DNA from: Apostichopus japonicus
Lineage: Eukaryota > Echinodermata > Holothuroidea > Aspidochirotida > Stichopodidae
Length of the DNA: 64,000 nt
NCBI RefSeq assembly: GCF_037975245.1
Contig: NC_092579.1
Span: 12,012,678-12,076,677, forward strand
Direction: 5' to 3'
This document shows positions 19,020-58,457 of the stretch, one piece after another (position 1 is the stretch's first letter; every line of letters starts with the position of its first letter). The notes beneath the pieces are model-generated. The model searched no databases, was not told the origin of the DNA, and saw only the letters and a list, made by a program, of their open reading frames with translations. The translations under genes were made by a program, and so were the position numbers.

Positions 19020-19105
19020 CATCCCTGACGGGACTCGAACCCGCAACCTTTGAATTTACTTCTGGATTAGAAGTCCAATGCGCTATCCGATTGCGCCACA
19101 GGGAC
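19020..19105 (-). tRNA. tRNA-Arg(TCT) with a 12-nt intron
   Basis: Acceptor GTCCCTG pairs with CAGGGAT. The A box is TGGCGCAATCGG and the B box GGTTCGAGTCC. The anticodon loop CTTCTA is interrupted after position 37 by ATCCAGAAGTAA before ATTCAA resumes, the same site as the intron of vertebrate tRNA-Arg(TCT). The spliced form has a paired TTGGA/TTCAA anticodon stem. Likely functional. Confidence 0.93.
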
Positions 19106-20050
19106 CTTAGCGGTATTTGGAGAAGCATGACACAAGATCATAAAAGTTAGAAAAACTGATGTCTCCAGCAAATACGTTTCACGCTTTTCAAACACTATAC
19201 GCAGTCAACGTGTTTACGGTACACAAAGGATGTTAATTACAATGGAACCGCGTAGTGTCGTCCAAATGACTTTCTTTCATCGAATTAACTCTGAAGTCAT
19301 CACGTATTAGATGAGTCTGTTGGGAGTGCTTTATGGTTATATATTTGAACCCCTATATTGTTCAATGGTCCTATATATAGGAGAGAAGGGGAGGAGGAGG
19401 TTGGAGGGGGGGGGGTGGTGTCAAAAGCTTCAGTACTTTGCGTATACTATGTGAGCACCACACTATTTATGTAGAAGGCAACATGGGTCCAAAGAATGTT
19501 ACCACAAAGCTCCTCCACGCTTGTATGTTAGATGGCAGATATATTACGTAATAATACAACGATGTATGTAAGTCAATGAGAAAATTATTCATATTCATAT
19601 ACAACTGAGTATAATGATAACTTGTTCTTGATAATTACCAGGACTCTAAAAACTACCACGATGTTAAAAAATGAATGGCAAGGTTTGAATTTCAAAAATG
19701 TAAGTAAATTGTACAGGGTTCTCGGGCGGATCCAGGATTTAAAAAATGTGACCCTGAGATCGTTGAATATAAAATTGTAAGGGTAAAAGACTAGGTTAGC
19801 AAAGTGCTAAATGAAAAAAAATGTAAAATAAAAGAAATTAAATGAAAATATTTAAGAGAAATAAGAATATAAAACATGTAACGGTAAAATCAACCATAAA
19901 ATTAAATTAAGATTACAATAAAAATATGAATTACATACCAAAAGCAATTTTAATGATACATATAAAAGATCATACAGGTTGTGTTTTTGTTCTTACATTA
20001 GCGTACAATTGGGTCTCACAGGAATTTGGTAGTGTTTCAAAAATAGAAAG

Positions 20051-20136
20051 CATCCCTGACGGGACTCGAACCCGCAACCTTTGAATTTACTTCTGGACTA
20101 GAAGTCCAATGCGCTATCCGATTGCGCCACAGGGAC
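20051..20136 (-). tRNA. tRNA-Arg(TCT) with a 12-nt intron, second copy
   Basis: Same body as the 19020 gene, with intron GTCCAGAAGTAA (one base different). It lies in the second half of the duplicated block. Acceptor, T arm and both internal promoter boxes are intact. Confidence 0.93.
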
Positions 20137-20397
20137 CTTAGCGGTATTTGGAGAAGCATGACACAAGATCATTAAAGTTAGAAAAAATGATATCTCCAGC
20201 AAATACGTTTCACGCTTTTCAAACACTATTCGCAGTCAACGTGTTTACGGTACACGAAGGATGTAATGACAATGGAACGGCAGTGTCGTCCAAATGACCT
20301 TTTTTTCATCGAAATAACTTTACCTAGTGCGTAAATATTATAGATCTAATCGATTGTACAAAGTATCGTTGCTTAAACACCGGAAGGGCAATGTAAA

Positions 20398-20667
20398 CAA
20401 AGTGGCTATTCTTACGACTAGTTGTAATAATAATGACCTTTTGCGCATGCGCAGTTGCTATTTTTACGACTAGGAGTACTATTTTTACAACCAGGAGTAA
20501 CAATAATTTCCGGTTAGGGTTAGGTTCAGGGTTAGGGTTGGATTGAGGGTTAGAGTTAGGGTTACCCCTACTACATGCGCAGTTGCTTTATTTACTTTGA
20601 ATTCGCCGATGTCGTAAGAATAGTTTATAAATAATTGTTACAACTAGTCGTAAGAATAGCCATGGCC
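20398..20667. mobile_element. 270-bp MITE with telomere-like internal repeats
   Basis: The ends share an inverted repeat, GGCTATTCTTACGACTAGTT, near 20404 and ending near 20660. A 9-bp target duplication CAATGTAAA lies at 20389-20397 and 20668-20676. The interior has several GGGTTAGGGTTAG-like repeats (about 20514-20567) and two copies of catgcgcagttgct. A 9-bp duplication would suit a Mutator-like element, but the superfamily is not proven. Confidence 0.75.
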
Positions 20668-21081
20668 CAATGTAAATCATTTTAAATTCAGCCTTATTTC
20701 ACCATGTAGAATTTTACATCGCATTGTCAAATTCAGAAAAGTCACTTTGGTAGTATTACAGAAATGGCTAATACTTAGTAAAATCACGCACCTAATATTT
20801 CTGTGTGTCAGACCGAAGAAGAGAGGGCGACAAACAGATTTATGAAATAAGTGTTATTCAGGTTATGAGTGATATATTTGTTAGATTCACCCTGCTATGA
20901 AATTCCTTCCATTGATTCATGTTCCAAGGGAACAGCTTACTGACGTCGGCTTAAAACATGAAATTATTGTAGTTCTTACGCCATATCGCCTGATAATATA
21001 CCAAATTCTGAATAGATATTCGCTTCAAGCTTCTTCGGACGAAGGTCTTAAGGTTAAGGGTTTCATTTCCTCACAGACAAG

Positions 21082-36755: not shown

Positions 36756-37120
36756 GAAAACAAATCTGTTATTTTCATTGTCTCTTCTCTTGTGTCTCTT
36801 CTCTTGCCTTTATTTGAATAAAACAACATATGTGTTATTATGCAGTATCCGATTCCTAGACACCTATACCTGACTCTATGTCAACCATTACCAGTAACAT
36901 GCATGTAGGGACGATATTGCTCCGCCGACTTGAAATTTTAAAGAAACGCCACACTTTGCAACTTTTACCGTATTATTTATAGTGTTAGTATTCTGGTGAA
37001 AATTAAACAGCACAGACAAGCAACATCATGTCCAAAGATATGTTCGTGATATGAAGTTATTTGTCGAAATGATTTTGTCTTCATTAATCTATTTTCAAGA
37101 TGATATGTCCAATGATGTGC

Positions 37121-37917
37121 AAGCGATCTCTAGTACAAAAACCAAGTGTACCCCTGACGGGTCTCGGAACCCGCAACCTTTGAATTTGAAGTCAATTGAT
37201 GTGTAAGCGATCTCTAGTACAAAAACCAAGTGTACCCCTGACGGGTCTCGGAACCCGCAACCTTTGAATTTGAAGTCAATTGATGTGTAAGCGATCTCTA
37301 GTACAAAAACCAAGTGTACCCCTGACGGGTCTCGGAACCCGCAACCTTTGAATTTGAAGTCAATTGATGTGTAAGCGATCTCTAGTACAAAAACCAAGTG
37401 TACCCCTGACGGGTCTCGGAACCCGCAACCTTTGAATTTGAAGTCAATTGATGTGTAAGCGATCTCTAGTACAAAAACCAAGTGTACCCCTGACGGGTCT
37501 CGGAACCCGCAACCTTTGAATTTGAAGTCAATTGATGTGTAAGCGATCTCTAGTACAAAAACCAAGTGTACCCCTGACGGGTCTCGGAACCCGCAACCTT
37601 TGAATTAGAAGTCCATTGATGGGCAAGCGATCTCTAGTACAAAAACCAAGTGTACCCCTGACGGGTCTCGGAACACGCAACCTTTGAATTAGAAGTCCAA
37701 TGATGTGCAAGCGATCTCTAGTACAAAACCAAGTGTACCCCTGACGGGTCTCGGAACCCGCAACCTTTGAATTAGAAGTCCATTGATGTGCAAGCGATCT
37801 CTAGTACAAAAACCAAGTGTACCCCTGACGGGTCTCGGAACCCGCAACCTTTGAATTAGAAGTCCAATGATGTGCAAGCGATCCCTAGTACAAAACCAAG
37901 TGTACCCCTGACGGGTG
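37121..37917 (-). repeat. 84-bp tandem array of a tRNA-Arg 3' half, ten copies
   Basis: Unit starts (aagcgat) fall at 37121, 37205, 37289, 37373, 37457, 37541, 37625, 37709, 37792 and 37876. Each unit holds, on the minus strand, the anticodon-to-acceptor half of tRNA-Arg(TCT) with an extra base in the T loop (GGTTCCGAGACCC), plus about 40 bp of 3' flank. No unit has a D arm. Because 84 is 3x28, a repetitive open frame runs through it on the minus strand; that frame is not a gene. Confidence 0.93.
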
Positions 37918-38240: not shown

Positions 38241-38337
38241 TTATATCTATTGCTTCCGTTGGGAAAATCGTTAGTAACAATGTTCACGGTGAACTTTGAA
38301 CCATCACACAATAGATTAGCAAGATTCTTCGAGTTTT

Positions 38338-39090: not shown

Positions 39091-39235
39091 GTTGGCATTC
39101 TAAGTTACACGACATGCCTCTACACGTGCTTTATATAAGGCCGATCTCACCATGTCCCGTTATCCAAAGTTTGATTACTTTCCAGTGGCTGTAAAAGATG
39201 AGCCATGTTAGAGGACCCAGTCAGCGTAAAAAGCA

Positions 39236-39372
39236 ATTATACTTCTGGCTGGACTCGAACCGACAACATTTGAATTAGGAGTGAGATGATTTGCATTGTT
39301 TAAGCGGTCCCAAGTGCAAACGAATTGTACCTCTGACGGGACTCGAACCCGCAACCGTTGAATTAGGAGTGC
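39236..39372 (-). pseudogene. Two tRNA-Arg 3'-half remnants
   Basis: Positions 39236-39278 and about 39328-39372 carry T-arm and anticodon-side sequence only, with changed bases (gaattaggagtg instead of gaattagaagtcc). Similar halves precede most intact genes, near 46984, 48108, 48970, 51730, 53193, 54330 and 58018. Confidence 0.75.
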
Positions 39373-39415
39373 GATGATATGCATTTTGTAAGCGGTCCCA
39401 AGTGCAAAAGAATTG

Positions 39416-39489
39416 TACCCCTGGCGGGACTCGAACCCGCAACCTTTGAATTAGAAGTCCAATGCGCTTTCCGATTGCGCCACAGAGGC
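39416..39489 (-). tRNA. tRNA-Arg(TCT), intronless
   Basis: Full 74-nt cloverleaf with acceptor GCCTCTG/CAGGGGT and discriminator A. The anticodon loop is CTTCTAA with no intron, and A and B boxes are canonical. A TTTT run follows about 6 nt downstream on the minus strand, as expected for Pol III termination. Confidence 0.9.
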
Positions 39490-41316: not shown

Positions 41317-41362
41317 CATAGGCGTACGAGGCGGGGGGCAGGGGGGCAGACTGCCCCCCCAA

Positions 41363-41524: not shown

Positions 41525-41706
41525 ATATATATATAAATATGCAGTAGCTTGCCCGAATCTTTTTCAAATTTTTGCCCGACAATCCCATGATTTTCTTTAT
41601 TTAGCATCATGATGCCCGAATATTTCCGTGTAACACCACCGTAAGCGCAGTTCATCTGAGCTACCACGCTTTTTGCACGATCATTTTTTTTCTAACTAGT
41701 CAATTG

Positions 41707-42871
41707 CAGGTGCGTATCCAGGGGGGGGGGGGCGTTGGGGGCGCGCGCCCCCCGGGTAAGAAAAAGAGGAGAGAAAAAACTTTTACATTAGTTATGGCGA
41801 ATTAGGGGCTGCACCACCGCCGCGCAGTGGCGGAGCGTCCATACGGTCAGGGGGGGGGGCGGATGGACTGCTGGCGCCTTTTTCAGCTCTTGACCACTTT
41901 TTACTTATTCTAGATTATTGACTTTTTTATTGCGCTCTCATCTACTTATTGACATTTGTCACATTTTGTTGGTGTAATTTGGCGATGACACCTTACTCTT
42001 CGTTTATCTGCATATTAGCCAGGCCCGGAAAGGGTCATTTCCGGCGATCTAGGGAGTATCTTTACTCAAAAATTTCCTGTACGCTACGCGCCAACTAGTG
42101 GTGGCGCTCCGCTTAGATAGTGTCGAAAGCGCCCCTACAGACCATTCTCGCACTCCTGACCAATACCCCTAGCTCCGCAACTGCCGCCGCGCCTCCTACG
42201 CCTATGTGTGTAGTTTCGGTTTCGGAAATATCTGCTATTTTTTCATTTCCTTCAACCAAGTTTTATAATAGCCGTTATAAGAGGTTTTAATATTTGTACA
42301 TCAATAAATTAACTGTGTCTGAATTTTCGAAAATTTCTGACCAACATTCTGCATCACACTTCCCTCTACTCGTGCAATTTTGACCAGTCTGTTAGGGGTT
42401 GAAGGAAGTTTTTCTGTATTGGTTGTCCATAGATGAAATTTTGTACAACATTATGGGTATGTTTTGAAGTGAGTTTATTCACGAGAAATGTGAATTTTCA
42501 AATTCTGAACAAATACGGGGCTTAAATCCTTGAAAAGTGGGGCTGACGGGTATTGTGGGCCGCGACGTAGAATCACCTACAAAAGCAAAGACCCACAGGA
42601 GATGCGATCAGGTCGAACATGATGTGTGCCGGCTTGACAATCTTCAAAAAGGTTATGGATGGAAAAAAAAACTATTAGGAAATACTTGGTTCTCAGGCAA
42701 TAAGTGTACATCTGGTTGGTCATTTCAAGACCGAGAAGTGCCGTTTCCGGTGATCTGGGGGGGGTTTCAAAACAAGAAATTTTCTTGTACGCTGCGCGCC
42801 AACCGATGGTGGCGCTCCGCTTAGATAGTAATTCGCGCCCCCCGGGTTTGAAAATCCTGGATACGCGCCTG
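41707..42871. mobile_element. TE2: nested TIR element
   Basis: Ends CAGGTGCGTATCCAGG and, inverted at the right, CAGGCGCGTATCCAGG. AATTG lies on both sides, so the target duplication is at least 5 bp. It carries TE3 (41825-42183) and one module copy at about 42733-42830. No ORF of known family. Confidence 0.7.
41825..42183. mobile_element. TE3: 359-bp MITE nested in TE2
   Basis: Terminal CAGTGGCGGAGCGTCC and, inverted at the right, CAGTTGCGGAGCTAG. The target duplication CCGCCGCG is perfect (41817-41824, 42184-42191). The interior matches the 59876-60278 element in opposite orientation. It has one module copy at about 42022-42118. Confidence 0.88.
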
Positions 42872-42887
42872 AATTGTATACCTGGAC

Positions 42888-43529
42888 CAAGGGCGGCGGA
42901 ACCGGGGGGGGGGACGTACCCCCCCACCTTTCCTCAGGTTAAAAATGTGCCTTTTTTCTACATAAAAATTGAGGTGCCTCAAGTTAGCAAGAGGCCAGGG
43001 AACCAGAATGAACACTCGGGAAGGGCCGTTTCCGGCCATCTGAGGGGTTTGTAAAACCAAAAATTTTATAGTACGCTCCGCGCCAACCGATGGTGGCGCT
43101 CCGCTCAGATAGTCGTGCATACAACTTTGCAAATCCTGACTAACCCCGTGACATTTAATGAATTTCTGTGGGTCAAACTCAAAGCTATTTCGAATGGAAA
43201 AAATTTGTTAAGATATTAACCAGAAAAAAATCTAATTCGGAAGATTCCTACATTAGCAACTAGCATGATTTCACCTCATTTTGTCTCAAAAGAAAACTTG
43301 TTCCTTGTTTCCCAATTTGCGCATTGGATATTGCAGTGATAGTATGCATATTTTCCTTTTGGGGGGGGGGGGGGGGCGTTGATGGAGTGATGTGTATACA
43401 CAAGTAAGATAATACAATAAGAGTTATAAAGGGTACTAAATATAAGGCTGCATAAGTCCAATCGAATTTCTGCAAAGTGCCCTTTGATGTTGGTGCCCCC
43501 CCAGATTAAAAGTGCTTCCGCCGCCCTTG
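42888..43529. mobile_element. TE5: 642-bp TIR element with perfect 8-bp target duplication
   Basis: The ends are CAAGGGCGGCGGAA and its exact inverse. Target duplication ACCTGGAC at 42880-42887 and 43530-43537. One module copy at about 43018-43118. Non-autonomous. Confidence 0.9.
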
Positions 43530-44067
43530 ACCTGGACATCCCCAACATGAGTTGGTGTGGGGGGGGGGAGGGTGCCCGCAAGCCTAGAAGTACAGGTTTA
43601 TCGTATTCTTTGTGATGTTTTATACTTTTTTGTGAGACAAATTGCAGTCTCACCCGACACAGCTTCATTATCCCGCCTACTGTCGTTTAACAATGTATGT
43701 TTTTATGGAGGTAGCTGAGTACTGTGTTAAAATAATAAATAAGGTAACTAAATATGAGCTTAAAAATTATACTGTCCCATTTTTCCCCTTCAAAGTGATG
43801 TTACCATTTTTTCTTCTTCTAATTTACCAAATTTTTGGGGAAGTGTAAATTTCTAAAACGTGAGATTATAAAATAAAGAATGTTTAGATGCAACTTGCAA
43901 GGCCTCTGAAGTGCCGTTTCCGGCAATCTGAGAGGCATTGTGTGCCAAAAATTTTCTTGTACGCTACGCGCCAACCGATGGTGGCGCTCCGCTTAGATAG
44001 TGTCACGGGAACTTTCGGGCACAAAAAGTTCTGCCCCCCCAAACTGAAATGGTCCCGTACGCCTATG

Positions 44068-44127
44068 GGTATAACTTTTGAAACTTTTAATTTATCTGGA
44101 AACGTGCCAGTTTGAAAAGACAAATTG
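44068..44127 (-). mobile_element. LINE-A, 5' continuation beyond TE1
   Basis: Matches the sequence that precedes the RT start in the plus-strand LINE-A copy at about 45060-45112. It ends at gacaaattgc, a 5' truncation. The junction is followed by two copies of ggatcatgcatgcagatta (44138-44180). Confidence 0.8.
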
Positions 44128-44319
44128 CATGATCTTAGGATCATGCATGCAGATTAGGATCATGCATGCAGATTAGGATCTTAGGAATGAATGAAGTGCC
44201 TTTTAGGATGTCTGATATCCTGGAATAGTTTACTCTGAAGATAATGATTTTACGCAGAACTACTGCAACCAAACTTTCAGGAGATCAGCTGTGTTAGCGA
44301 TTCCAATAGCAAAGAAATG

Positions 44320-44386
44320 TACTTCAGACGGGACTCGATCCCGCAACCTTTGAATTAGAAGCGCTTTCCGATTGCGCCACAGAGGC
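44320..44386 (-). pseudogene. tRNA-Arg(TCT) pseudogene
   Basis: Lacks six bases of the anticodon stem (gaagcgctttcc instead of gaagtccaatgcgctttcc) and has a weakened acceptor 3' side (acttcag). Confidence 0.85.
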
Positions 44387-44558
44387 GGTACACTTACGTT
44401 GAGCCAATATTTTACCTCTAGACAGTACGCCCCCCCCCCAAAAAAAAAGAAGAATAAATGAAAACAAATAAAAACTATAGTAAATAACACACACAGCTAG
44501 GAATTTCTATTTGTGTTGATTTAGACTGGAGTTGATATCACCGAGTACAAAACAGTGA

Positions 44559-44632
44559 CACCCCTGACGGGACTCGAACCCGCAACCTTTGAATTAGAAG
44601 TCCAATGCGCTTTCCGATTGCGCCACAGGGGC
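44559..44632 (-). tRNA. tRNA-Arg(TCT), intronless, GCCCCTG type
   Basis: Acceptor GCCCCTG/CAGGGGT with only a terminal G-U pair; discriminator G. Boxes are intact and a TTTT run follows downstream (from gtacaaaac). Confidence 0.92.
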
Positions 44633-44985
44633 GACACGCTGTACTAACAAGCCATTGATATATAACACAAAATGACTCATCCAAGCTGTTATTAAAATTA
44701 AAAGGTGTTACGTCTCTGTTTTTTATCTTTTATTTGTGATAGAAGCTGATGTTGGCATTCTAAGTTACGCCAATTGGTACAAAATATTCACACATGCCTC
44801 TACACGTGCTTTATATAAGGCCGATCTCACCATGTCCCGTTTACCCAACCCTTCTTCCCCTGAAGCTAAAGCTTCGGCCTCGAAAAAAAATACGTTCTGA
44901 CACGGTATAAAAGTTTGATTACTTTCCAGTGGCTGAAAAAGATGAGCCATGTAAGAGGACCCAATCAGCCTAAAATACATTTATA

Positions 44986-46673
44986 CATTATTATTAGAAT
45001 ACATTATTAAGCATATTATCCCTTTTATTACAAAACCACTGGCCCATATTTGCAATTTGTCATTTCAAACTGGCACTTTTCCAGATAAATTAAAAGTTTC
45101 AAAAGTTATACCGGTGTATAAAAAGGGTGACAAAGATAATGACCGGCCTATATCATTGTTGTCATGCTTTTCTAAATAATTGAAAGGCTTATGTTCAATC
45201 GTGTTTTTAATTTTCTTAACAAGCATGATATTCTATGTGATCAGCAGTATGGTTTTAGAGCATATCACTCTACTGAACTTGCATTGGCAGATGCTGATTG
45301 ACAAATTATACAACAGCTTAGATAACAATAAAACTTGCATTGTTGTATTTCTTGACCTTTCAAAGGCTTTCGACACTATTGATCATGTTATCTTAATGAG
45401 TAAATTGCACCACTACGGTATTAGAGGAACAGCACTGAATTGGATAGACAGTTATATTACAAATCCTCTTCAATATGCCTCTTACAAAAACACTATACTT
45501 CTCATATTGCAGAAATTCAATGCGGTGTCCCACAGGGTTCAATTTTAGGCCCATTGCTTTTCATTTTATATGTCAATGACATCTGCCAAATTTCTAAATT
45601 TGCAAACATAACATTATTTGCCGATGATAGGCCTACAAGCATTTTCTTCGAATCAGATGTAGATGCAAATTCATTTCCATATTAAAATTTCTAATGAACT
45701 AAGTAAATTTAATAACTGGTTTGCTGCCAATAAACTATCACTCAATATTGACAAAACTAATTATATTGAGTTTAATACTTCCAGAAATTTTAGCTGGGAT
45801 AAAGATATCACCATGGGTGGTATAATCCTAAAACAAGTTTATACTACTAAGTTTTTAGGTGTATAAGCTTTCGTGGCATCAGCACATTTTTACAGTATGC
45901 AGGAAAGCAGCGAAAAGCGTTGGGATTTTATCAAAATTGAAATTTCTCCTACCAGAGCGCATATTAAAGACCCTCTACCAAACTTTGGTCGTTCCACACA
46001 TCTCAAATTGTTCAATTATTTGGTCTGGCACGCCAGAAACAAATCTTTATCCGCTTATTATTCTCCAAAAGAAAGCCATGCGCCATATTTCACGTGTTGC
46101 ATCTCGTGAACACACAAATCAACTTTTCAAGAAGCTCAACTTATTAAAAGTTACCGACATGCATTATTCGTGTAAATCTTGCCACGCTTGCATATAAGGC
46201 ATGGAATGGATTATTGCCTAACACATTTCATGATTTTTTAACTAGTAACAGTGTGATACATCACAACACACGGAATGCTGATAATGCACATTACTTTCCT
46301 TATTAAACATCAATTGGGAGGCTTCGTCTTAGAAATCGTGCAATAAAGACATGGAATTCCATAACAGAGAGCTTCAAAACCAAAGTATTCAGTAAAATAT
46401 TCAAAAAGCATCTAACCAAAGACGTAATATCCATTTATTAATAAGCCATCCATTCATTGGCACGATAACAAATTATTATTGTAAATATTATCATCATTTA
46501 GTATTCATTGATCGTCAAATTATTCTATTTTGTATTTATATGTAAATACTTTTCTTCTTTTCTTTATACAGGGAGTCTTCTACTTTGTTAAGCTGTTGTA
46601 CGCTTTTTGGAAGACTTCCTTCACATTGTAAATTTACACGTGAAAAACAAATAAATCAAATCAAATCAAATCA
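44986..46673 (+). mobile_element. LINE-A, second copy, frame-broken
   Basis: The RT is readable in several frames: FLDLSKAFDTIDH at about 45348, CGVPQGSILGPLLF at about 45520, FADD near 45618 with a short insertion right after, then thumb segments to about 46430. The 3' UTR hairpin is at 46571-46619 and the tail is (TCAAA)n. At least three frameshifts or internal stops, so inactive. It is inserted in block S/tRNA sequence: a tRNA remnant (46675-46710) follows directly. Confidence 0.9.
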
Positions 46674-46674
46674 A

Positions 46675-46710
46675 GCTCGCAACCTCGCTTTCCAAATGCG
46701 CCACAGGGGC
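46675..46710 (-). pseudogene. tRNA-Arg remnant at a LINE-A 3' junction
   Basis: Only the D arm and acceptor 5' side remain (gcgccacaggggc read in plus orientation), with a piece of T-arm sequence fused to it. Confidence 0.65.
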
Positions 46711-47075
46711 GACAGGCTGATATTAAAATGAAGAAGTGTTAAGTCGTTGTTTTTGTTTTCTATAGAAGCGGATGTTTGCATTCTAAGTTACACGACATGC
46801 CTCTACACGTGCTTTATATAAGGCCGATCTCACCATGTCCCATTTATCCAACCCTTCTTCCCTCGGAAGCGAAAGCTTCGGCCTCGAAAAAGTTTACGCT
46901 CTGACACGGTCTAAAAGTTTGATTACTTTCCAGTGGCTGAAAAAGATGAGCCATGTAAGAGGACCCAGTCAACCTAAAAAACCATTATACTTCTGACGGG
47001 ACTCGAACCCGCAACATTTGAATTAGGAGTGAGATGATTTGCATTGTGTAAGCGGTCCCAAGTGCAAAAGAATTG

Positions 47076-47149
47076 TACCCCTGACGGGACTCGAACCCGC
47101 AACCTTTGAATTAGAAGTCCAATGCGCTATCCGATTGCGCCACAGAGGC
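47076..47149 (-). tRNA. tRNA-Arg(TCT), intronless
   Basis: 74 nt, acceptor GCCTCTG/CAGGGGT. The D loop reads GGATAGC (plus ctatcc) rather than the ggaaagc of most copies, which matches the two intron-bearing genes. TTTT run downstream. Confidence 0.92.
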
Positions 47150-47742
47150 GGCACACTTACAATCATGATTTTATACAAGACCATATTCTTTATATGGTAT
47201 AGTCTTAAGCCCAAGAACAGCTCTAGTGAAAGTAACTGAGGGTGAAAGGTGAAAAGTGGTATCGAATACAAAACTGGACTAACCAATTTTATATCAATAA
47301 CAACGACACATAAAGTGAAAAACACACAGTTAGTAAACGACGAAAACGCTCATAAGCTGTTGATTTTTTTGCTATTATTATCATTTTCAGTTATGATCTT
47401 AGGAATGAATGAAGTGCCTTTTAGGATGTCTGACATCCTGGAATGGTTTACTCTTAAGATAATGATTTTACGCAGAACTTAATTCTTTATACGCTAGAGT
47501 GAATGATGCCCCCCCCTTCTTTCAGTTAAAAGGCAATCCATTCTACAAAACAGTAATAAGTAAACAAAAGTATACAACATATAAACAACATTTACATAGT
47601 GGAAATAAATAGGAAATGCGTTTTACGGAGCTCGAGAAATACTTTCCCCTCGTCTTTCAAATTTATTGCAGTTAACACGAGGGCCTGCAACCAAACTTGC
47701 AGGAGATCAGCTGTGTTAGCGATCCCAAGTGCAAAAGAATTG

Positions 47743-47816
47743 TACCCCTGACGGGACTCGAACCCGCAACCTTTGAATTAGAAGTCCAATGCGCTATCCG
47801 ATTGCGCCACAGAGGC
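47743..47816 (-). tRNA. tRNA-Arg(TCT), intronless
   Basis: Same sequence as the 47076 gene, including the GGATAGC D loop; TTTT run in the caaaagaattg 3' flank. Confidence 0.92.
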
Positions 47817-48211
47817 GGCACACTTTACAATCATTTATGCAAGACCATATCTTTTATTTGTGATAGAAGCTGATGTTGGCATTCTAAGTTGCGCCAATTG
47901 GTACCAAATACTTCCCACATGCCTCTACACGTGCAAGGCCGATCTCACCATGTCCCGTTTATCCAACCCTTCTTCTCCCGTAAGCGAAAGCTTCGGCCTC
48001 GAAAATTTACGTTCTGATACGGTCTAAAAGTTTGATTACTTTCCAGTGGCTGAAAAAAATGAGCCACGTAAGAGGACCCAATCAACCTAAAAAAACATTT
48101 ATACTACTGTCGGATCTGGAATCCGGAACCGTTGAATTAGACCGTGATATGATTTGCCTTGAACGTTTCAAGAGATGAGCCGTGTAAGCGATCCCAGGTG
48201 CAAAAGAATTG

Positions 48212-48285
48212 TACCCCTGGCGGGACTCGAACCCGCAACCTTTGAATTAGAAGTCCAATGCGCTTTCCGATTGCGCCACAGAGGC
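48212..48285 (-). tRNA. tRNA-Arg(TCT), intronless
   Basis: GCCTCTG type with a C-G closed T stem (GCGGG/CCCGC). TTTT run follows. Confidence 0.9.
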
Positions 48286-48462
48286 GGTACACTTACGTTG
48301 AGTCAATATCTTATCTCTAAACCCCTCGCCTACGCCCCATAAAAGAATAAATGAAAACAAATAAAAACCAGCAAATATCAAAATGTGCAACACACACAGC
48401 TAGGAATTTCTATTTTTTGTTGATTTAGACTGGAGTTGATATCACCGAGTACAAAATATTTA

Positions 48463-48618
48463 CACCCCTGGCGGGAATCGAACCCGCAATCTTTGAATGA
48501 GAAATCCAGTGCGTTTTTTTTTCTTTTATTGGGAGATAAGCCCACTGGCTCATCCATGCTCAAATGTATTTACAAGAAATGCGCTTTCCAATGCGCGTTC
48601 CGATTGCGCCACAGGGGC
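48463..48618 (-). pseudogene. tRNA-Arg(TCT) split by a short retroposon
   Basis: The T-arm half (48463-48513) and acceptor/D half (about 48589-48618) are separated by about 75 bp ending in T-rich sequence. On the minus strand the insert carries GAGCCAGTGGGCT, AATAAAA and an A tail. It disrupts the anticodon stem. Confidence 0.85.
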
Positions 48619-49079
48619 GACACGCTGTACTAACAATCCATAGATATATCATAGAAAATGACTCATCCAAGCTTTTATTAAAATTAATAGGTGTTACGTG
48701 TCTGTTTTTTAATCTTTTATTTGTGATAGAAGCTGATGTTGGCATTCTAAGTTACGCCAATTGGTACAAAATAATTACACATGCCTCTACACATGCTTTA
48801 TATAAGGCCGATCTTACCATGTCCCGTTTATCCAACCCTTCTTCTCCCGTAAGCGAAAGCTTCGGCCTCGAAAGTTTACGTTCTGATACGGTCTAAAAGT
48901 TTGATTACTTTCCAGTGGCCGCAAAAGATGAGCCATGTAAGAGGACCCAATCAGCCTAAAATACATTTATACTACTGTCGGATCTCGAATCCGCAACCGT
49001 TGAATTAGACCGTGAGATGATTTGCCTTGAACGTTTCAAGAGATGAACCGTGTTAGCGATCCCAGGTGCAAAAGAATTG

Positions 49080-49152
49080 TACCCTGGCGGGACTCGAACC
49101 CGCAACCTTTGAATTAGAAGTCCAATGCGCTTTCCGATTTCGCCAGAGAGGC
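49080..49152 (-). pseudogene. tRNA-Arg(TCT), decayed
   Basis: The acceptor 3' side has lost one C, the A box is TGGCGAAATCGG, and the 5' acceptor is changed (gccagagaggc in plus). Probably not folded. Confidence 0.7.
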
Positions 49153-49329
49153 GGTACACTTACGTGGAGTCAATATCCTATCTCTAGACCCCTCGCCTAC
49201 GCAACATAAAAGAATAAATGAAAACAAATAAAAACCAGCAAATATCAAAATGTGCAACACATACAGCTAGGAATTTCTAATTTCTGTTGATTAAGACTGG
49301 AGTTGATATCACCGAGTACAAAACATTTA

Positions 49330-49492
49330 CACCCCTGGCGGGAATCGAACCCGCAACCTTTGAATGAGAAATCCAATGCGGTTTTTTTTCCCCTCTCTTT
49401 TATTGGAATATGAGCCCACTGGCTCACCCATGCTCAAATGTATTTACAAGAAATGCGCTTTCCAATGCGCGTTCCGATTGCGCCACAGGGGC
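49330..49492 (-). pseudogene. tRNA-Arg(TCT) split by a short retroposon
   Basis: Same insertion point and insert type as the 48463 copy (gatgagcccactggctca-like core, CT-rich left end). Confidence 0.85.
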
Positions 49493-49605
49493 GACACGCT
49501 GTACTAACAATCCATAGATATATCATAGAAAATGACTCATCCAAGCTTTTATTAAAATAAATAGGTGTTACGTGTCTTTTTTTATCTTTTATTTGTGATA
49601 GAAGC

Positions 49606-51494
49606 CCCATAAGGGTCGTAAACAATCATCGTATCCCTCTTCTTTCAAGGATGGTGACAAACAGATTAACACCGACCATGACATTGCTAATAAATTTATG
49701 ACCTTTTCGTCAATCTGGGGCCATCACTGGCAAGTAAAATCAACCACAAAAGTAAATCACAGGAATCTGTGAACATTGATGCTAACACTCATTCCATGTT
49801 TGCTCATCCTGTTAGTGAGGAGGAGTTGTTAAAAAAACAGACACCTCTTGCATGAAACCATGCAATAAATCAGCTGGATGCGATGATTTTAAGCCTGGTA
49901 TTGTTAGGCAAGTTATCCCATTTATTACCAAACCATTAACCCATATTTGCAATTTGTCGTTTAATACCGGTATATTTTCTGATATGCTAAAGATTGCCAA
50001 GGTCATCCCTGTCTTTAAGAAAGGGGATTCAGAAAACTTTGAAAATTATCACTATTATCATGTTTTTCCAAAATAGTTGAAAGGCTTATGTATAATCGTA
50101 TTTTTAACTTTATTTCAAGTATAACATTTTATGCCATGAACAGTATGGATTCCGTCCTGAACACTCCACTGAGCTAGCACTAGCTGATGCTATTGACAAT
50201 TTATATAGTAATCTTGACAAGAATAGTACCTGTGTCGGGGTTTTCCTGGACCTCTCAAAGGCATTTGACACAATAGACCACACAATTCTGCTGAATAAAT
50301 TACACCATTACGGCATCAGAGGAACCCCTCTTAATTGGATCGACAGTTACTTAGCAAACCGCTACCAATATACATCCAACAAAAGTGCTCATTCCCAACC
50401 GGAGAGAATTCAATGTGGTGTGCCACAAGGCTCTATTCTTGGTCCATTGTTTTTCATCCTTTATGTCAATGACATTACCAATGTTTCTGATAAAGTTAAA
50501 GTTGTTTTGTTTGCTGACGACACAAATATCTTCTTCGTATCACAATCGAGTACTTTATTTCATATTGAAGTATCAACTGAATTAGACAAGTTCAGCGACT
50601 GGTTTGCTGGCAACAAATTATCATTGCATATTGATAAACAAACTATATAGTTTTTAATACTTCTAACAATTTTACATGGAATGCTGATATAACTATGGGC
50701 GGATAACGACTACAACAAGTCAAAAGTACTAGATTTTTAGGCGTTTATATAGATCATAAACTTAAATGGTGTGACCACATTACAATTGTCTGTAAAAAGG
50801 TTGAAAAAAAAACACCGGTGTTTTAGCTAAGCTTAAGCATTATCTGCCACAACACATATTAAAGATTCTCTATCAGACATTAGTCCTGTCACATATTACG
50901 TATTGTTGTAACATATGGTCTGGTACTAGATAAACCAATCTGAATCCCATTTATATCACACAGAAGAGAGCAGTCCGCCATATATAACACATGCCAAACC
51001 ACGGGACCACACAAATCCTCTTTTTAAGCGTTCTAGGTTGTTAAAAACTGATGACATTATTAGGGTTAATCTTGCTACATTTGCTTATAAGGCATGGAAT
51101 GGACTGTTACCAAATGCTTTTAATGACTACTTAATAAGTAACAGTGATATACATCATTACAATACCAGATTTTCAGGCAATGCACATTATAACAGGTATA
51201 ATTCTCCAATGGGGATGTTATCACTAAGGGCACGCACAATCAAAACATGGAATTCTCTATCAGACGATATTACAAATAAACCCTCTGCAAAATCATTCAG
51301 AAGAAACTTTATTCAAAAAATTATTGCATCTTATAAATCGAGCATGTTCATATTTTCTTATACATTTTGTTTTCTTTTTCCTTTTCTTTACAGGGAGTCC
51401 TCTACTTTGTTAAGCCATCTGAAGGTTTTTTAGAGGACTTCCTATCACATTGTATATATTCACGTGATGAAACAAAATAATCAATCAATCAATC
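49606..51494 (+). mobile_element. LINE-B (CR1/Jockey superfamily), frame-broken
   Basis: Related to LINE-A and LINE-C. The pre-RT segment is SAGCDDFKPGIVRQVIPFI; FLDLSKAFDTIDH is near 50250, CGVPQGSILGPLFFILYVND from 50413, and FADD at 50508-50522. The C-terminal frame is 51038-51345. The 3' UTR hairpin is at 51393-51442 and the tail (AATC)n. Several frame breaks. Inserted within block S, which resumes at 51494. Confidence 0.9.
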
Positions 51495-51841
51495 AAAGTT
51501 GATGCTGGCATTCTAAGTTACGCCAATTGGTACCAAATACTTCCCACATGCCTCTACACGTGCAAGGCCGATCTTACCATGTCCCGTTTATCTAACCCAT
51601 CTTCTCCCGTAAGCGAAAGCTTCGGCCTCGAAAAATTTACGTTCTGATACGGTCTAAAAGTTTGATTACTTACCAGGGGCTGAAAAAAGATGAGCCACGT
51701 AAGAGGACCCAGTCAACCTAAAAAACATTTATACTACTGTCGGATCTGGAATCCGGAACCGTTGAATTAGACCGTGAGATGATTTGCCTTGAACGTTTCA
51801 AGAGATGAGCCGTGTAAGCGATCCCAAGTGCAAAAGGATTG

Positions 51842-51915
51842 TACCCCTGGCGGGACTCGAACCCGCAACCTTTGAATTAGAAGTCCAATGCGCTTTCCGA
51901 TTGCGCCACAGAGGC
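51842..51915 (-). tRNA. tRNA-Arg(TCT), intronless
   Basis: GCCTCTG type, intact; TTTT run in caaaaggattg downstream. Confidence 0.9.
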
Positions 51916-52092
51916 GGTACACTTACGTTGAGTCAATATCTTATCTCTAGACCCCTCGCCTACGCAACATAAAAGAATAAATGAAAACAAATAAAAACCA
52001 GTAAATATCAAAATGTACAACACACACAGCTAGGAATTTCTATTTTTTGTTGATTTAGACTGGAGTTGATATCACCGAGTACAAAACAGTTA

Positions 52093-52250
52093 CACCCCTG
52101 ACGGGAATCGAACCCGCAACCTTTGAATTAGAAATCCAGTGCGCTTTTTTTTTTCTTTTATTGAGAGATGAGCCCACTGGCTCACCCATGCTCAAATGTA
52201 TTTACAAGAAATGCGCTTTCCAATGCGCGTTCCGATTGCGCCACAGGGGC
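52093..52250 (-). pseudogene. tRNA-Arg(TCT) split by a short retroposon
   Basis: Insert from about 52145 to 52220 at the same anticodon-stem position as in the 48463 and 49330 copies. The T-arm half retains the B box. Confidence 0.85.
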
Positions 52251-52605
52251 GACACGCTGTACTAACAATCCATAGATATATCATAGAAAATGACTAATCC
52301 AAGCTTTTATTAAAATAAAAAGGTGTTACGTCTCTGTTTTTTAATCTTTTATTTGTGATAGAAGCTGATGTTGGCATTCTAAGTTACGCCAATTGGTACC
52401 AAATACTTCCCACATGCCTCTACACGTGCTTTATACAAAGCCAATATCACAGTGTCCCGTTTTTCCAACCCTTCCTCCCCCGTAAGCGAAAGCTTCTGCC
52501 TCGAACATTATCTCTGACACGGTCTAAAAGTTTGATTACTTTCCAGTAACTGAAAAAGATGAGCCATGTAAGAGGACCCAATCAGCCTAAAATACATTTA
52601 TACTA

Positions 52606-53191
52606 AAGATTCAAAAGATTAAACTTATTGAAACTAAATGATATTATAAGAGTCCAGCTTGCAACATTTGCATATAAAACATGGAATAGATTGCTACCCG
52701 AGGCTTTTAAAGATTTTATATATAGTAATAGACTAATCCACAACCATCAAACACGCCATTGTAATAACGCACATGTTTTATCTCAACGAAGTACTTTAAG
52801 TTCTTTTAACCCTCGTATTCGTGCTATAAAAACGTGGAATAATCTCCAGGATAATGTTAAGAATAAGCCTTCTTACTCTGTATTCAAAAGGAATCTCCAA
52901 ACTGTAATTATTTCTCACTATTGATGGATTTATTCTTGTGTGTGTTTGCGATTAAGATCATTATAAAGATTGTTAGGATTGTTTATTAACATAACTAATT
53001 TCAATTAGTGTCAATTCGATTATTTCATCATTGTAGATGCTACTATTAACTTTTCTTTTTCTATTCTTAAGTTTTTCTTTCTTTTTTTCTTTTTGGGGAG
53101 TCTCCACTTTGTTCAGCCTTGCATGCTTTATAGGAGACTTCCCGTCACACTGTAAATTGTGATGAAACAAATAAATATACAAATATACAAA
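52606..53191 (+). mobile_element. LINE-C, 5'-truncated 3' fragment
   Basis: The C-terminal frame 52628-52921 ends in NVKNKPSYSVFKRNLQTVI. The 3' UTR hairpin is at 53095-53142 and the tail is AAATAAATATACAAATATAC. It is inserted between block S and the tRNA half, with TACTA on both sides. Confidence 0.9.
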
Positions 53192-53301
53192 TACTACTGC
53201 CGGATCTGGAATCCGGAACCGTTGAATTAGACCGTGAGATGATTTGCCTTGAACGTTTCAAGAGATGAGCCGTGTAAGCGATCCCAAGTGCAAATGGATT
53301 G

Positions 53302-53375
53302 TACCCCTGGCGGGACTCGAACCCGCAACCTTTGAATTAGAAGTCCAATGCGCTTTCCGATTGCGCCACAGAGGC
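53302..53375 (-). tRNA. tRNA-Arg(TCT), intronless, weak terminator
   Basis: Body intact, GCCTCTG type. The usual TTTT run is reduced to TTT here (caaatgg in plus), so termination may be inefficient. Confidence 0.87.
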
Positions 53376-53552
53376 GGTACACTTACGTTGAGTCAATATC
53401 CTATCTCTAGACCCCTCGCCTACGCAACATAAAAGAATAAATGAAAACAAATAAAAACCAGTAAATATCAAACTGTGCAACACACACAGCTAGGAATTTC
53501 TACATTTTGTTGATTTAGACTGGAGTTGATATCACTGAGTACAAAACATTTA

Positions 53553-53977
53553 CACCCCTGACGGGACTCGAACCCGCAACCTTTGAATTAGAAGTCCAAT
53601 GCGCTTTTTTCTCTCTTTTATTTATTTATTTTATTTATTTTATTTATTGAAAGAATTTATTTATTTATTGAAAGATGAGCCCACTGGCTCACCCATTTGA
53701 TGCATAATTATATACAATTTATAACAGTAGTACTGTGTAAACGCAATAAAATATGTTGTGTATGCTTTTGGAGCATTAAGCATTAAATAGTTGAGTGTAA
53801 TCAAATTTAATTTAATTACATGAAGGTTATTACAATACAGCCACACAAAATGAATGTATACATGCACCGCCTAAATAATCCAATATTACACTTGAATAAC
53901 GAAGACATCTGAACGATGACGTGAAAACTGTCGAAATTAATAACGTCCAATGCGTTTTCCGATTGCGCCACAGGGGC
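53553..53977 (-). pseudogene. tRNA-Arg(TCT) split by a 340-bp retroposon with target duplication
   Basis: The tRNA sequence gtccaatgcgcttt (53594-53607) is repeated at 53945-53958 with one change. On the minus strand the insert between them ends in GGGTGAGCCAGTGGGCTCATC and an (AATA)n/A-rich tail, so it is a retroposed element. The gene would otherwise be canonical. Confidence 0.88.
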
Positions 53978-54440
53978 GACACGCTGTACTAACAATCCAT
54001 TGACATATCATAGAAAATGACTCATCCAAGCTTTTACTAAAATAAAAAGGTGTTACGTCTCTGTTTTTTTAATCTTTTATTTGTGATAGAAGCTGATGTT
54101 GGCATTCTAAGTTACGCCAATTGGTACAAAATAATTACACATGCCTCTACACATGCTTTATATAAGGCCGATCTTACCATGTCCCGTTTATCCAACCCTT
54201 CTTCCCCCGTAAGCGAAAGCTTCGGCCTCGAAAAAAATTACGTTCTGACACGGTCTAAAAGTTTGATTACTTTCCAGTGGCTAAAAAGACGAGCCATGTA
54301 AGAGGACCCAGTCAGACTAAAATACATTAATGCTACTGTCGGATCTTGAATCCACAACCGTTGAATTAGACCGTGATATGATTTGCCTTGAACGTTTCAA
54401 GAGATGAGCCGTGTAAGCGATCCCAAGTGCAAAAGAATTG

Positions 54441-54514
54441 TACCCCTGGCGGGACTCGAACCCGCAACCTTTGAATTAGAAGTCCAATGCGCTTTCCGAT
54501 TGCGCCACAGAGGC
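54441..54514 (-). tRNA. tRNA-Arg(TCT), intronless
   Basis: GCCTCTG type, intact; TTTT run downstream. Confidence 0.9.
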
Positions 54515-54604
54515 GGTACACTTATAAAGTAATGATTTTATGTAAACCAAAATTCTTAATTTGCTATAATTCAAAGCAAACTAAAAAAATATTGAACGAT
54601 AGTA

Positions 54605-54750
54605 ATTTGATTTGATTTATTTGTTTTATCACGTGAATATATGCATTGCGAAAGGAAGTCTAAAAAACCTATTTTGGTTTAACAAAGTAGAAGACTCCCT
54701 GAAAAAGGAAAGAAAAAGAAAAGGAAATGAAAATATTACAGTTCACAAAA
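54605..54750 (-). mobile_element. LINE-A/B-type 3' UTR fragment
   Basis: Only the terminal hairpin (54653-54702) and the (AAATC)-type tail remain. No coding sequence. Confidence 0.7.
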
Positions 54751-55527
54751 AAAAATCAATAGTAGTATGATGTTTCTATGGTTGTTCCCTCTTTCATTTG
54801 AACCTGTTTTAATATATGATACATCCCGTGAATGATGACTTAACTGATGATGATATCAGCTCCTCATAGCGGGCCTAAATGTTAATGTTAATCAATCCAT
54901 TGTTTGAGAAATAACTCGAATGTTTTTGCAAACTTCATATAGACAACAGTGCACCACTGGAGGGCATTCAACATCATTTGTCCTTTACGATATTGTACTT
55001 CTGTGGAACTTTGTACTTCTGTGGAAAAACAAATAAATAAATAAAAAGGAAAATGAAATGATTTGTAAACACGTCATTAGAGGCCATAAATGTATGTTAT
55101 CGAATTAAATATTGTGTTACTTCTGAGGGTACCTGTACATTATTCTAAGTATAGGTTTGTTAAACCATGTATAGGTTTTCACATTGTATTTTTTGTGAGA
55201 AAACCAATAAATCAAATACTAAGTATAGTGGGGCCTCTATCATTGATGAGTCTCATATTTTTAAAGGGTCGTTTCTCAAAAATTAAAGTGGTACCGAAGT
55301 AAAACCTGGAATAACAAACTTTATAAAAATAATAAAATAAATAAATAAAGTGAAAAAAAACCCAAATGAGAAACAACGAAACTTGTTATCCATTTCTTTA
55401 TTAATTGTGATTTTGGGAGTGAATGTAGTGCCTTTTGCAATATCTGAATATTCATTCCTTAACATGATAGCCTGGAATCATTGTGTTAACTTGAATCAGC
55501 TTTAAACCAGCGTACAAAAGAATTGTA

Positions 55528-55601
55528 TACCCCTGACGGGACTCGAACCCGTAACCTTTGAATTAGAAGTCCAATGCGCTTTCCGATTGCGCCACAGGGG
55601 C
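55528..55601 (-). tRNA. tRNA-Arg(TCT), intronless, fully paired T stem
   Basis: GCCCCTG acceptor. The T stem is ACGGG/CCCGT, where the other cctgacggg copies have a G-U pair at this place. TTTT run in gtacaaaag downstream. Confidence 0.92.
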
Positions 55602-55822
55602 GTCACACTTGAACCTCAATCCGTTATGCCATATCCAGCCTCCCCTAACCCCCCCTCCGCTACAAAAACAATAAATAATAAACGGTGTAAATAAGTCATA
55701 AGAAGCATTCGCAGAAATAAAACGAAGCCCAACATCTTGAAGGTTTCGAGTACATCGTTTAGTCTTTATTGGAACTGTAACAATGGGAGAATGGCGTTGT
55801 CGGTGGCTGAATAATTTTCCTT

Positions 55823-57229
55823 CAGTTTAATCGATCACAAATCAATTTAATCAGTTTAATCAGTTAATCAGTTTAATCAGTTTAATCAGTCTAATCGATC
55901 ACAAAATATTACTAAGTAAATTATTTTTTTATGGTATCAGAGGAACAACCCTAAATTGGCTAGATAGTTTATCTTTCAAATAGATACCAGTACACTTTAT
56001 ATAAAAATTCTAAATCTGAACTTGCTAAAATCGCTTGCGGAGTTCCTCAGGGTTCTATACTAGGTCCATTACTATTTATAATTTATGTCAATGATATCGT
56101 TAATGACTCCGATATTGCTAAAACAATATTATTTGCCGACGACACAAATATTTTCTTCGATTCCCAAGATCTACTCTCATCACATAAAACTGTTTCTACT
56201 GAACTAACTAAATTTTCCAGCTGGTTTGCAGCAAACAAATTATCTCTTAATATAGAAAAAACTAATTATATGGTGTTTAATACTAGTCACTCATTCAGAT
56301 GGGATCACAGTATTACCATGAATGATAAAATTATTAATCGGGTTAACACTACTAAGTTCTTGGGTGTACACATAGACAATAAACTTTCGTGGCGTGATCA
56401 CATATCAGCAGTCTGTAACAGAGTGGCTAGAAATACTGGTATTTTATGCAAATTAAAACATTATTTACGTCCAAATATACTCAGAACACTCTATATAACT
56501 CTGATTTTACCCCAATTAACTTATTGCACGACTATTTGGTCAGGAACCTATTCTACAAATCTTAATCACCTATGTGTCCTCCAGAAGAGAGCTATCCGCC
56601 ATATATCACATGCTGCACCACGTGATCATACTAGCCCATTATACAAAAGATTAAATTTATTAAAACTAAATGATATTATAAGAGTCCAGCTTGCAACATT
56701 TGCATATAAAGCATGGAATGGATTGCTACCCGAGGCTGTTAAAGATTTTATATATAGTAATAGACTAATCCACAACCATCAAACACGCCATTGTAATAAC
56801 GCCCATGTTTTATCCCAACGAAGTACTTTAAGTTCTTTTAATCCTCGTATTCGTGCTATTAAAACGTGGAATAATCTCCAGGATAATGTTAAGAATAAGC
56901 CTCCTTACTCTGTATTCAAAAGGAATCTCCAAACTGTAATTATTTCTCACTATTGATGGATTTATTCTTGTGTGTGTTGTGATTAAGATCATTATAAAGA
57001 TTGTTAGGATTGCTTATTAACATTATTAATTTCAAGTAGAGTCAATTCGATTATTTCATCATTGTAGATGCTACTACAGGTATTAACTTTTCTTTTTCTA
57101 TTCTTAAGTTTTTCTTTCTTTTTTTCTTTTTGGGGAGTCTCCTACTTTGTTAAGCCTTACAGGCTTTATATGAGACTTCCCGTCACACTGTAAATTGTGA
57201 TGAAACAAATAAATATACAAATACAAATA
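55823..57229 (+). mobile_element. LINE-C, 5'-truncated copy with filler at its 5' junction
   Basis: The RT starts inside the TIDHKILLSK region at about 55892. CGVPQGSILGPLLF is near 56036 and FADDT at 56132. The frame 56270-56953 covers the thumb and C-terminus. One frame break near 55975. The hairpin is at 57132-57181 and the tail AAATAAATATACAAATACAAATA. Six or so (aatcagttt) copies fill 55840-55890 at the 5' junction. Confidence 0.9.
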
Positions 57230-57592
57230 ATTGACAAGTTCATTGTACGAAACAGTTTAGTAAATATACAAAATAATACAATAAATACACAACATTTACA
57301 TAGAAGAAATAAATAGAAAAGCAAATTTTATGTTCATTTTACTTAAACTTGGCATCACACGCAGAACAAATTGTGTGCAACAAGAAGAAATTTCATCTTT
57401 CTTTCAGTATTTTTACAATTTCATTGTAGTAAACATTTATAAATAAACACATTATACAAAATATTTAATATTAACAGCCTGGAATAAACAGAAAAGTAAC
57501 TTCGACGGTGTCTAAATAATATGAAATGGAACGATTTGCATCGCACGTTTCAAGAGATGAGCCGTGTTACTTGAGCTACGTACAAAAATGTG

Positions 57593-57666
57593 TACCCCTG
57601 ACGGGACTCGGACCCGCAACCTTTGAATTAGAAGTCCAATGCGCTTTCCGATTGCGCCACAGGGGC
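57593..57666 (-). tRNA. tRNA-Arg(TCT), intronless, altered T loop
   Basis: GCCCCTG type. The B box reads GGTCCGAGTCC, a change of the conserved T55, which may lower transcription and folding. Confidence 0.75.
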
Positions 57667-58126
57667 GAAACGCTGTACTAACAACCCATTGATATATAAT
57701 AGAAAATGACTAATCATTTTATTGAAATGAATAGGTGTTACGTCTCTGTTTTTTTTTTAAATCTTTTATTTGTGATAGAAGCTGATGTTGGCATTCTCAG
57801 TTACGCCAATTGGTACAAAATACTCCCCACATGCCTCTACACGTGCTTTATACAAAGCCAATATCACCATCTCCCGTTTACCCAACCCTTCTCCCCCCGG
57901 AGGCGAAAGCTTCGGCCTCGAAAATTAGCTCTGACCCGGTATAAATATTGATTACTTTCCAGTGGCCGCAAAAGATGAGCCGTGTAAGAGGACCGAATCA
58001 GCCTAAAATACATTTATACTACTGTCGGATCTTGAATCCGGAACCGTTGAATTAGACCGTGATATGATTTGCCTTGAACGTTTCAAGAGATGAGCCGTGT
58101 AAGCGATCCCAGGTGCAAAAGAATTG

Positions 58127-58200
58127 TACCCCTGGCGGGACTCGAACCCGCAACCTTTGAATTAGAAGTCCAATGCGCTTTCCGATTGCGCCACAAGGGC
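58127..58200 (-). tRNA. tRNA-Arg(TCT), intronless
   Basis: Acceptor GCCCTTG/CAGGGGT (one internal G-U); otherwise canonical. TTTT run downstream. Confidence 0.88.
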
Positions 58201-58383
58201 ACGCTTGATTACCACTTCCGTTGAGCCATTATGTTATGTCAAGACCCCTCGCCTATGCCCCTAAAAAAAATTAAACTGAAAGTGAAAACAAGTAAATATA
58301 AAAATGTGCAATACAAAGAGCTATGAATTTCTATTTTTTGTTGATTTAGACTGGAGTTGATATCACCGAGTACAAAACATTTA

Positions 58384-58457
58384 CACCCCTGACGGGACTC
58401 GAACCCGCAACCTTTGAATTAGAATTCCAATGCGCTTTCCGATTGCGCCACAGGGAC
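58384..58457 (-). tRNA. tRNA-Arg(TCT), intronless, position 32 changed
   Basis: The acceptor 5' side is GTCCCTG, like the intron-bearing genes. The anticodon loop is ATTCTAA (C32 to A) and the anticodon is unchanged. TTTT run in gtacaaaac downstream. Last copy of the array. Confidence 0.85.

Follow-up and report, generated by a model that had tools for sequence, protein, structure and literature searches.

A cluster of tRNA-Arg(TCT) genes lies in a 64,000-nucleotide stretch of contig C19 of the sea cucumber Apostichopus japonicus (C19:12012678-12076677 of the 671.6-Mb assembly of 35 contigs; hereafter the window). It is most probably (roughly 0.8) an echinoderm birth-and-death cluster of nuclear genes which has grown by local duplication and which doubles as a landing site of a non-long-terminal-repeat (non-LTR) retrotransposon similar to Mutsu of zebrafish. 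Nearly every copy of this element surveyed across the genome joins, by a 3' tail that is usually A-rich, to a point within a gene of the type transcribed by RNA polymerase III (Pol III).

In the window the 3' end of the element breaks four tRNA-Arg copies, all read on the minus strand, at a point past the A box. These copies are found at 48463..48618 (5' half 48578-48618, insert 48514-48577, 3' half 48463-48513), at 49330..49492 (5' half 49452-49492, 3' half 49330-49380), at 52093..52250 (5' half 52210-52250, 3' half 52093-52144, with an A-tailed insert between them) and, with a longer insert, at 53553..53977 (5' half 53945-53977, insert 53605-53944, 3' half 53553-53604). The insert ends in a motif like GGTGAGCCAGTGGGCTC, altered in the 48-kb copy, followed by CAATAAA and a run of A, and the tRNA-Arg sequence resumes at about nucleotide 22 (tRNA positions follow our own numbering), its first base being missing in the 48- and 49-kb copies. 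The 52-kb insert is bounded by a likely target-site duplication (TSD), AAGCGCA(T/C)T, of 9 bp with 1 mismatch, and the 53.6-kb insert by a 13-bp TSD, also with 1 mismatch. The short (52-kb) and the long (53.6-kb) insert can be aligned only over the last 29 nucleotides (nt), and the short one matches an insert in a tRNA-Ser copy over 36 nt as well; the two are taken as independent insertions of different subfamilies that entered tRNA-Arg(TCT) at one point. The short form is shared by three of the four copies, which were multiplied along with the array.

A search of the whole genome with the 3'-tail pattern, in which up to 3 mismatches were allowed, returned 59 places, and the same pattern reversed, used as a control, returned 0. 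The 3' flanks of all 59 were in hand and were read or tallied: 42 tails lie at tRNA-like1, 5 at 5S, 3 at Arg-TCT (those of the window), 3 at tRNA-like2, 3 at Gly-TCC, 1 at Ser-GCT and 1 at tRNA-Thr, and 1 is unclassified. The names tRNA-like1 and tRNA-like2 are our labels for tandem repeats of about 165 bp and about 155 bp respectively, which carry A-box- and B-box-like motifs and T runs; tRNA-like1, present on many contigs (L042, L043, L044, L098 and others), is the commonest landing site. A junction script, which asked for a gene of a six-member library immediately next to the element tail, found one in 55 of the 59 places, and the diverged tRNA-like2 of L050, recognised by reading, raises the number to 56. 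To these were added 19 copies hand-picked for their 3' flanks out of the 83 matches of a protein search with the C-terminus of open reading frame (ORF) 2; by reading, 8 are in 5S, 9 in tRNA-like1 and 2 in tRNA-like2, the script agreeing for 18 of them and L115 being assigned by reading, so that all 19 lie in a Pol III-type gene. Thus 78 copies were surveyed in total, and 13 of them are inserted in 5S rRNA genes. Rfam 5S matches exceed the gathering threshold in L074 and L075, tRNA-Gly(TCC) genes are called by ARAGORN beside the Gly insertion, and the Ser(GCT) isotype comes from the anticodon arm read by eye. The region upstream of the Thr copy (L147) contains another tRNA-Thr; an A tail is missing from L085, and in L069 the sequence is slightly rearranged farther on.

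The junctions are similarly regular. The insertion point in tRNA-Arg, -Gly and -Ser falls at about nt 21/22, immediately ahead of the D stem's 3' strand; 5S has a single site, CCGGTTCTCG, unlike the tRNA site, and in tRNA-like1 the point varies by a few nt. TSDs of 9-15 bp with 0-2 mismatches were found in 8 of 9 junction pairs, among them 14 bp without mismatches at the Gly insertion, 9 bp with 1 mismatch at the Ser insertion, and 15, 10 and 13 bp with 0, 0 and 2 mismatches at tRNA-like1 insertions. The 5S insertion L145/L105 has an 11-bp TSD with 1 mismatch, its two ends being judged from coordinates to belong to one copy. TSDs of this length in most of the two-ended copies are a mark of target-primed reverse transcription.

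The element itself is best seen in a copy on contig C11, which occupies roughly 67455-73028 (about 5.57 kb). Its ORF1 encodes 408 amino acids with Cys/His motifs recognised by eye and no Pfam match; an ORF1 with CCHC zinc knuckles is a feature of the Tx1 clade and of Mutsu. ORF2 is an open frame of 1308 amino acids with an apurinic/apyrimidinic-type endonuclease (APE), a reverse transcriptase (RT) and, toward the C-terminal side, zf-RVT; in the Pfam scan of one copy Exo_endo_phos scored 2.1e-11 and RVT_1 4.9e-32, and no match to a DDE transposase was obtained in that scan, RT and APE being found instead. A Pfam scan of 10 window ORFs for protein-coding neighbours of the cluster showed RT in two, and weak matches on the repetitive ORF at 37 kb. 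Because the best PDB match of ORF2, human L1 ORF2p (3e-69), is far ahead of R2 (8.6e-16), the element fits in the L1/Tx1 group of APE-type non-LTR retrotransposons as far as protein similarity goes.

The copies in different genes are closely related. The tRNA-Gly copy on C15 and the tRNA-like2 copy on C11 are 99.6% identical over 1631 bp, and a 5S copy on C17 shows 96.3% and 96.7% identity to the Gly and tRNA-like2 copies respectively. The Arg insert is 90.7-92.2% identical to tRNA-like1 copies and 89.2% to one 5S copy; in both 5S copies of these comparisons only the 3' junction lies in 5S. What appears to be one lineage with several targets is the main surprise of the analysis. It is proposed that the APE endonuclease of ORF2 would nick inside the target gene and that the target would probably be chosen with the aid of the Pol III transcription complex or of its chromatin, not by the site sequence alone, because near-identical copies use tRNA-Gly, 5S and tRNA-like genes whose site sequences are unlike. 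Residence in multicopy genes would spare the host. One of the two Arg insertions was later copied along with the array. The wider statement, that Pol III genes as a class (tRNAs, 5S rRNA, tRNA-like repeats), not one sequence, are what a single non-LTR lineage recognises, and that its insertion within the transcribed regions is most likely steered by the Pol III machinery, is put forward tentatively, its chances falling somewhat short of even.

A control was provided by 20 copies of a dispersed L2/CR1-like family, to which the same library of six gene types was applied. In none of the 20 was the junction found to lie inside a Pol III gene, and ARAGORN found no tRNA in the 20 flanks, whereas the library matched in 49 of 52 tail-family flanks and in all 19 relatives. 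Pol III arrays tolerate insertions generally; what sets the targeted group apart is the internal site. The dispersed family itself was considered as a tRNA-targeting candidate and rejected: it is dispersed, 15 of the 20 sampled 3' flanks lack library genes, and the other five lie in spacers. About eight of its fragments, the clade label of which is a guess, occur in and beside the array in both orientations (window 39733-62201; near 39733, 45105, 49853, 52609, 54605, 55894, 59346 and 60654).

Several observations weigh against the reading of the cluster as a landing site of a Pol III-targeted element. The five control copies just mentioned sit in spacers of Pol III arrays, with library genes within 711 bp, their junctions having been read by eye. 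Three of the 59 tails meet no gene body: L092 sits within a dispersed-type retrotransposon, L088 in the spacer of a tRNA-like1 array, and the tail of L078 is 21 nt upstream of a tRNA-Thr(AGT) called by ARAGORN. The commonest targets, tRNA-like1 and tRNA-like2, are named neither by ARAGORN nor by Rfam, even as intact units, and their transcription is unproven. A full-length tRNA-like2 copy has a TSD of at most 3 nt, several other TSDs contain 1-2 mismatches, and no 5S was found on the 5' side of L101/L144 and L045/L146, for which only the 3' junctions are known. Moreover, the 19 further copies were chosen by hand, and the 59 and the 19 are not independent events, because copies in arrays were partly multiplied with the arrays, as in the three Gly copies that occupy a span of 21 kb and in L106 and L108, whose flank is identical.

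The more serious of the two competing explanations assumes strict sequence-specific targeting with one target per subfamily, the mixed targets being rare off-target events. Most subfamilies examined do have one main target, the fetched ORF2 relatives at 42-48% identity are in 5S and those at 52-54% in tRNA-like1 or tRNA-like2, and Mutsu is named for 5S rRNA genes (PMC3706591). Copies of 96-99.6% identity in tRNA-Gly, tRNA-like2 and 5S, and an Arg insert 89-92% identical to tRNA-like1 and 5S copies, speak against it, and we regard it as a real but minority prospect. It is highly improbable that the array consists simply of tRNA genes amplified by unequal exchange in a repeat-rich locus, with the inserts incidental, for although the cluster is littered with fragments of a non-LTR family that has 7953 first-look candidates genome-wide, and although control copies also enter array spacers, the dispersed fragments sit between genes while the splitting tail meets a gene body in 56 of the 59 places and in all 19 relatives, and two different subfamilies occupy the same tRNA-Arg point.

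The targeted element can be compared with several known systems. Mutsu, a non-LTR retrotransposon in zebrafish 5S rRNA genes (PMC3706591), has about 5,500 bp and two ORFs with untranslated regions (PMC11202950). The sea cucumber element is likewise about 5.5 kb long, with two ORFs and insertions in 5S rRNA genes, but its close relatives are also inside tRNA-Arg, -Gly, -Ser and tRNA-like genes; it resembles Mutsu, its putative relative, yet it uses more targets. Zebrafish Dewa is found in the tRNA-Leu spacer and Keno in U2 snRNA genes (PMC3706591). They share with our element a small-RNA-gene target, although here it is the body of several Pol III-type genes, not a spacer or U2, that is entered. 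NeSL relatives possess a restriction-like endonuclease. Grouped with them are LIN15_SM in tRNA-Arg, LIN25_SM in tRNA-Glu and NeSL-1_TV in tRNA-Pro (PMC4640811), non-LTR elements which are also tRNA-gene-specific but use one tRNA species each, in contrast to the APE-bearing element and its several genes. Dictyostelium TRE5 and TRE3, non-LTR elements listed in the L1 clade, recognise Pol III genes, TRE5 being found also near 5S, and insert outside them, 40-54 bp upstream (TRE5) or 40-150 bp downstream (TRE3) of the gene (PMC5911963); the association with Pol III genes is common to both systems, and the position inside the gene (56/59) sets the present element apart. Dada DNA transposons also occupy fixed sites inside tRNA genes, but they have a DDE transposase and a 6-7 bp TSD (PMC3706591), whereas the element described here has RT, an A tail and TSDs mostly of 9-15 bp. 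Among the titles listed, a set outside Repbase and most of the subscription literature, there was no report of a non-LTR element inside echinoderm tRNA genes, nor of one non-LTR group using several Pol III-type genes from inside.

The host cluster comprises 14 tRNA-Arg(TCT) genes, all on the minus strand, called by ARAGORN and identically by Infernal/Rfam (56.6-70.6 bits), each with a cloverleaf and a TCT anticodon. A chance origin of these calls is excluded, because of the Infernal scores and of flanks common over hundreds of bases. Two genes, at 19020..19105 (59.5 bits) and 20051..20136 (56.6 bits), carry an additional 12 nt at the canonical 37/38 site of the anticodon loop, an intron noticed already in a preceding sequence-only reading of this DNA and evident in the letters; as tRNA introns commonly do, it can base-pair with the region of the anticodon (ACTTCT/AGAAGT). 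The same reading had described the array from 39416 to 58384 as 12 intact intronless genes without an encoded CCA. Both programs confirm 12 intronless genes, at 39416..39489, 44559..44632, 47076..47149 and 47743..47816 (both with a GGATAGC D loop), 48212..48285, 51842..51915, 53302..53375, 54441..54514, 55528..55601, 57593..57666, 58127..58200 and 58384..58457 (58.9 bits), and CCA follows the discriminator base in 0 of the 14 genes. The word intact holds for most of them and only loosely for 57593, in which the B-box base T55 is replaced by C, and for 58384, with C32 changed to A and wobbles in the acceptor. Those intronless genes that are intact probably serve as Arg-UCU tRNAs of the ordinary sort. 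A degenerate intronless copy at 49080..49152 (minus strand) reaches 44.1 bits in Infernal and receives no ARAGORN call, and weak Infernal tRNA matches at 203-270 (plus strand, 34.0 bits) and 44320-44386 (minus strand, 31.8 bits) are probably decayed copies.

Growth of the cluster by local duplication is visible in the flanks. The surroundings of 19020 and 20051 form a repeat of 92.9% identity over 580 bp, 1.03 kb apart; 47849-48974 is 94.5% identical to 51496-52605, 47849-48733 is 93.5% identical to 48712-49605, and the region of 47076 is 91.6% identical to that of 39416 over 419 bp. Toward lower window coordinates, a minus-strand tandem repeat of the tRNA-Arg 3' half with its 3' flank (84 bp x 9.6) occupies 37113..37916, and another of tRNA-Arg 3' halves (88 bp x 2.6) at 39229..39458, also on the minus strand, overlaps gene 39416. 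Between the 3'-half repeats and the array lies a 187-bp tandem repeat in four copies (38344-39093), and a 154-bp repeat in two copies (37916-38233) contains tRNA-like A-box and B-box motifs and resembles the tRNA-like2 targets. The missing CCA, together with flanks that agree between copies over hundreds of bp, favours duplication at the DNA level, as had been supposed, over retroposition of a mature tRNA. Real as it is, the expansion of tRNA genes is of an ordinary kind, because other tandem tRNA arrays are present in the same genome: a large tRNA-Lys(TTT) array at C3:17760905-17776764, with a spacing of about 170 bp and both strands in blocks, a tRNA-Arg(CCT) array on C18 near 13.57-13.67 Mb, with 10 genes in the 5.5 kb examined, and a tRNA-Gly(TCC) array on C15.

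On the history of the intron, a pattern search for the exact Arg-TCT core, with or without the intron, gave 17 occurrences genome-wide: 2 introned and 13 intronless on C19, all within the window, and one each on C9 and C11. The 13 include 49080 and the 53.6-kb split copy, which are not intact genes, and gene 58384, with its altered core, is outside the 17. The intronless gene at C9:6029813 matches the array type in 74 of 74 nt; its 5' flank scores 53 against that of 44559 (best of 200 shuffles 34) and 45 against that of 57593 (shuffles 37), and in 7 comparisons its 3' flank never scored better than shuffled sequence. The intronless gene at C11:19113612 is 88% alike the array type and has another D loop and T stem, and a degenerate Arg-TCT copy of the GTCCCTG/TCGGATA type on C20 contains an intron-like insert of different sequence.

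It had been suggested that a single intron loss was followed by segmental amplification; the amplification stands, and the single loss is plausible but unproven in view of the C11 and C20 forms. The chance that the array derives, by a single precise loss of the intron, from a gene of the same kind as the 19-20 kb pair is put at about even. Apart from the intron, the introned genes resemble those of the array, with TCGGA and the T arm in common, which are unlike those of the C11 gene, and the introned genes are probably old, because the degenerate C20 copy combines an intron-like insert with the GTCCCTG/TCGGATA type; nevertheless, a different intronless gene exists on C11, and the introned pair has no long flank in common with the array beyond the gene. 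Conversion of the array lineage by an intronless relative is also possible, since both introned and intronless forms occur outside the array. The supposition that 47076 and 47743 may be nearest to the founder finds no support: their T4 acceptor is common to 39416, 48212 and others, and 47076 closely resembles 39416, as given above. The acceptor GCCCCTG, for its part, occurs in the C9, 44559, 55528 and 57593 copies. In the accessible part of a sea cucumber study (PMC8580430) Arg gene counts are given and Arg-TCT introns are unmentioned, and the accessible part of a human Arg-UCU paper (PMC10791582) leaves the intron status unsettled.

Two further contigs came to notice. C35 is the mitochondrial contig (COX1 by Pfam) and reads with the echinoderm code; by eye the order is COX1-ND4L-COX2-ATP8-ATP6-COX3-ND3-ND4-ND5-(ND6)-CYTB, with ND1, ND2 and 16S on the COX1 strand, an order of the kind known from echinoids or holothuroids. 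C29, a contig of 31 kb, has five partial COX1 matches and is perhaps broken or repeated mitochondrial DNA.

For the family of tRNA genes, the cluster illustrates one route of decay, in which an insertion splits a copy and local duplication spreads the broken copy. The target-specific non-LTR elements named in the sources cited above use one small-RNA gene each or land outside the gene. Near-identical copies in tRNA-Gly, 5S and tRNA-like genes, together with relatives in tRNA-Arg and tRNA-Ser, offer a test case for deciding between choice by sequence and choice by transcription complex, and the same copies make target switching open to study. If recognition of Pol III genes as a class is true, the sea cucumber element would correspond, among animals, to the TREs of Dictyostelium, but as one that disrupts its targets.

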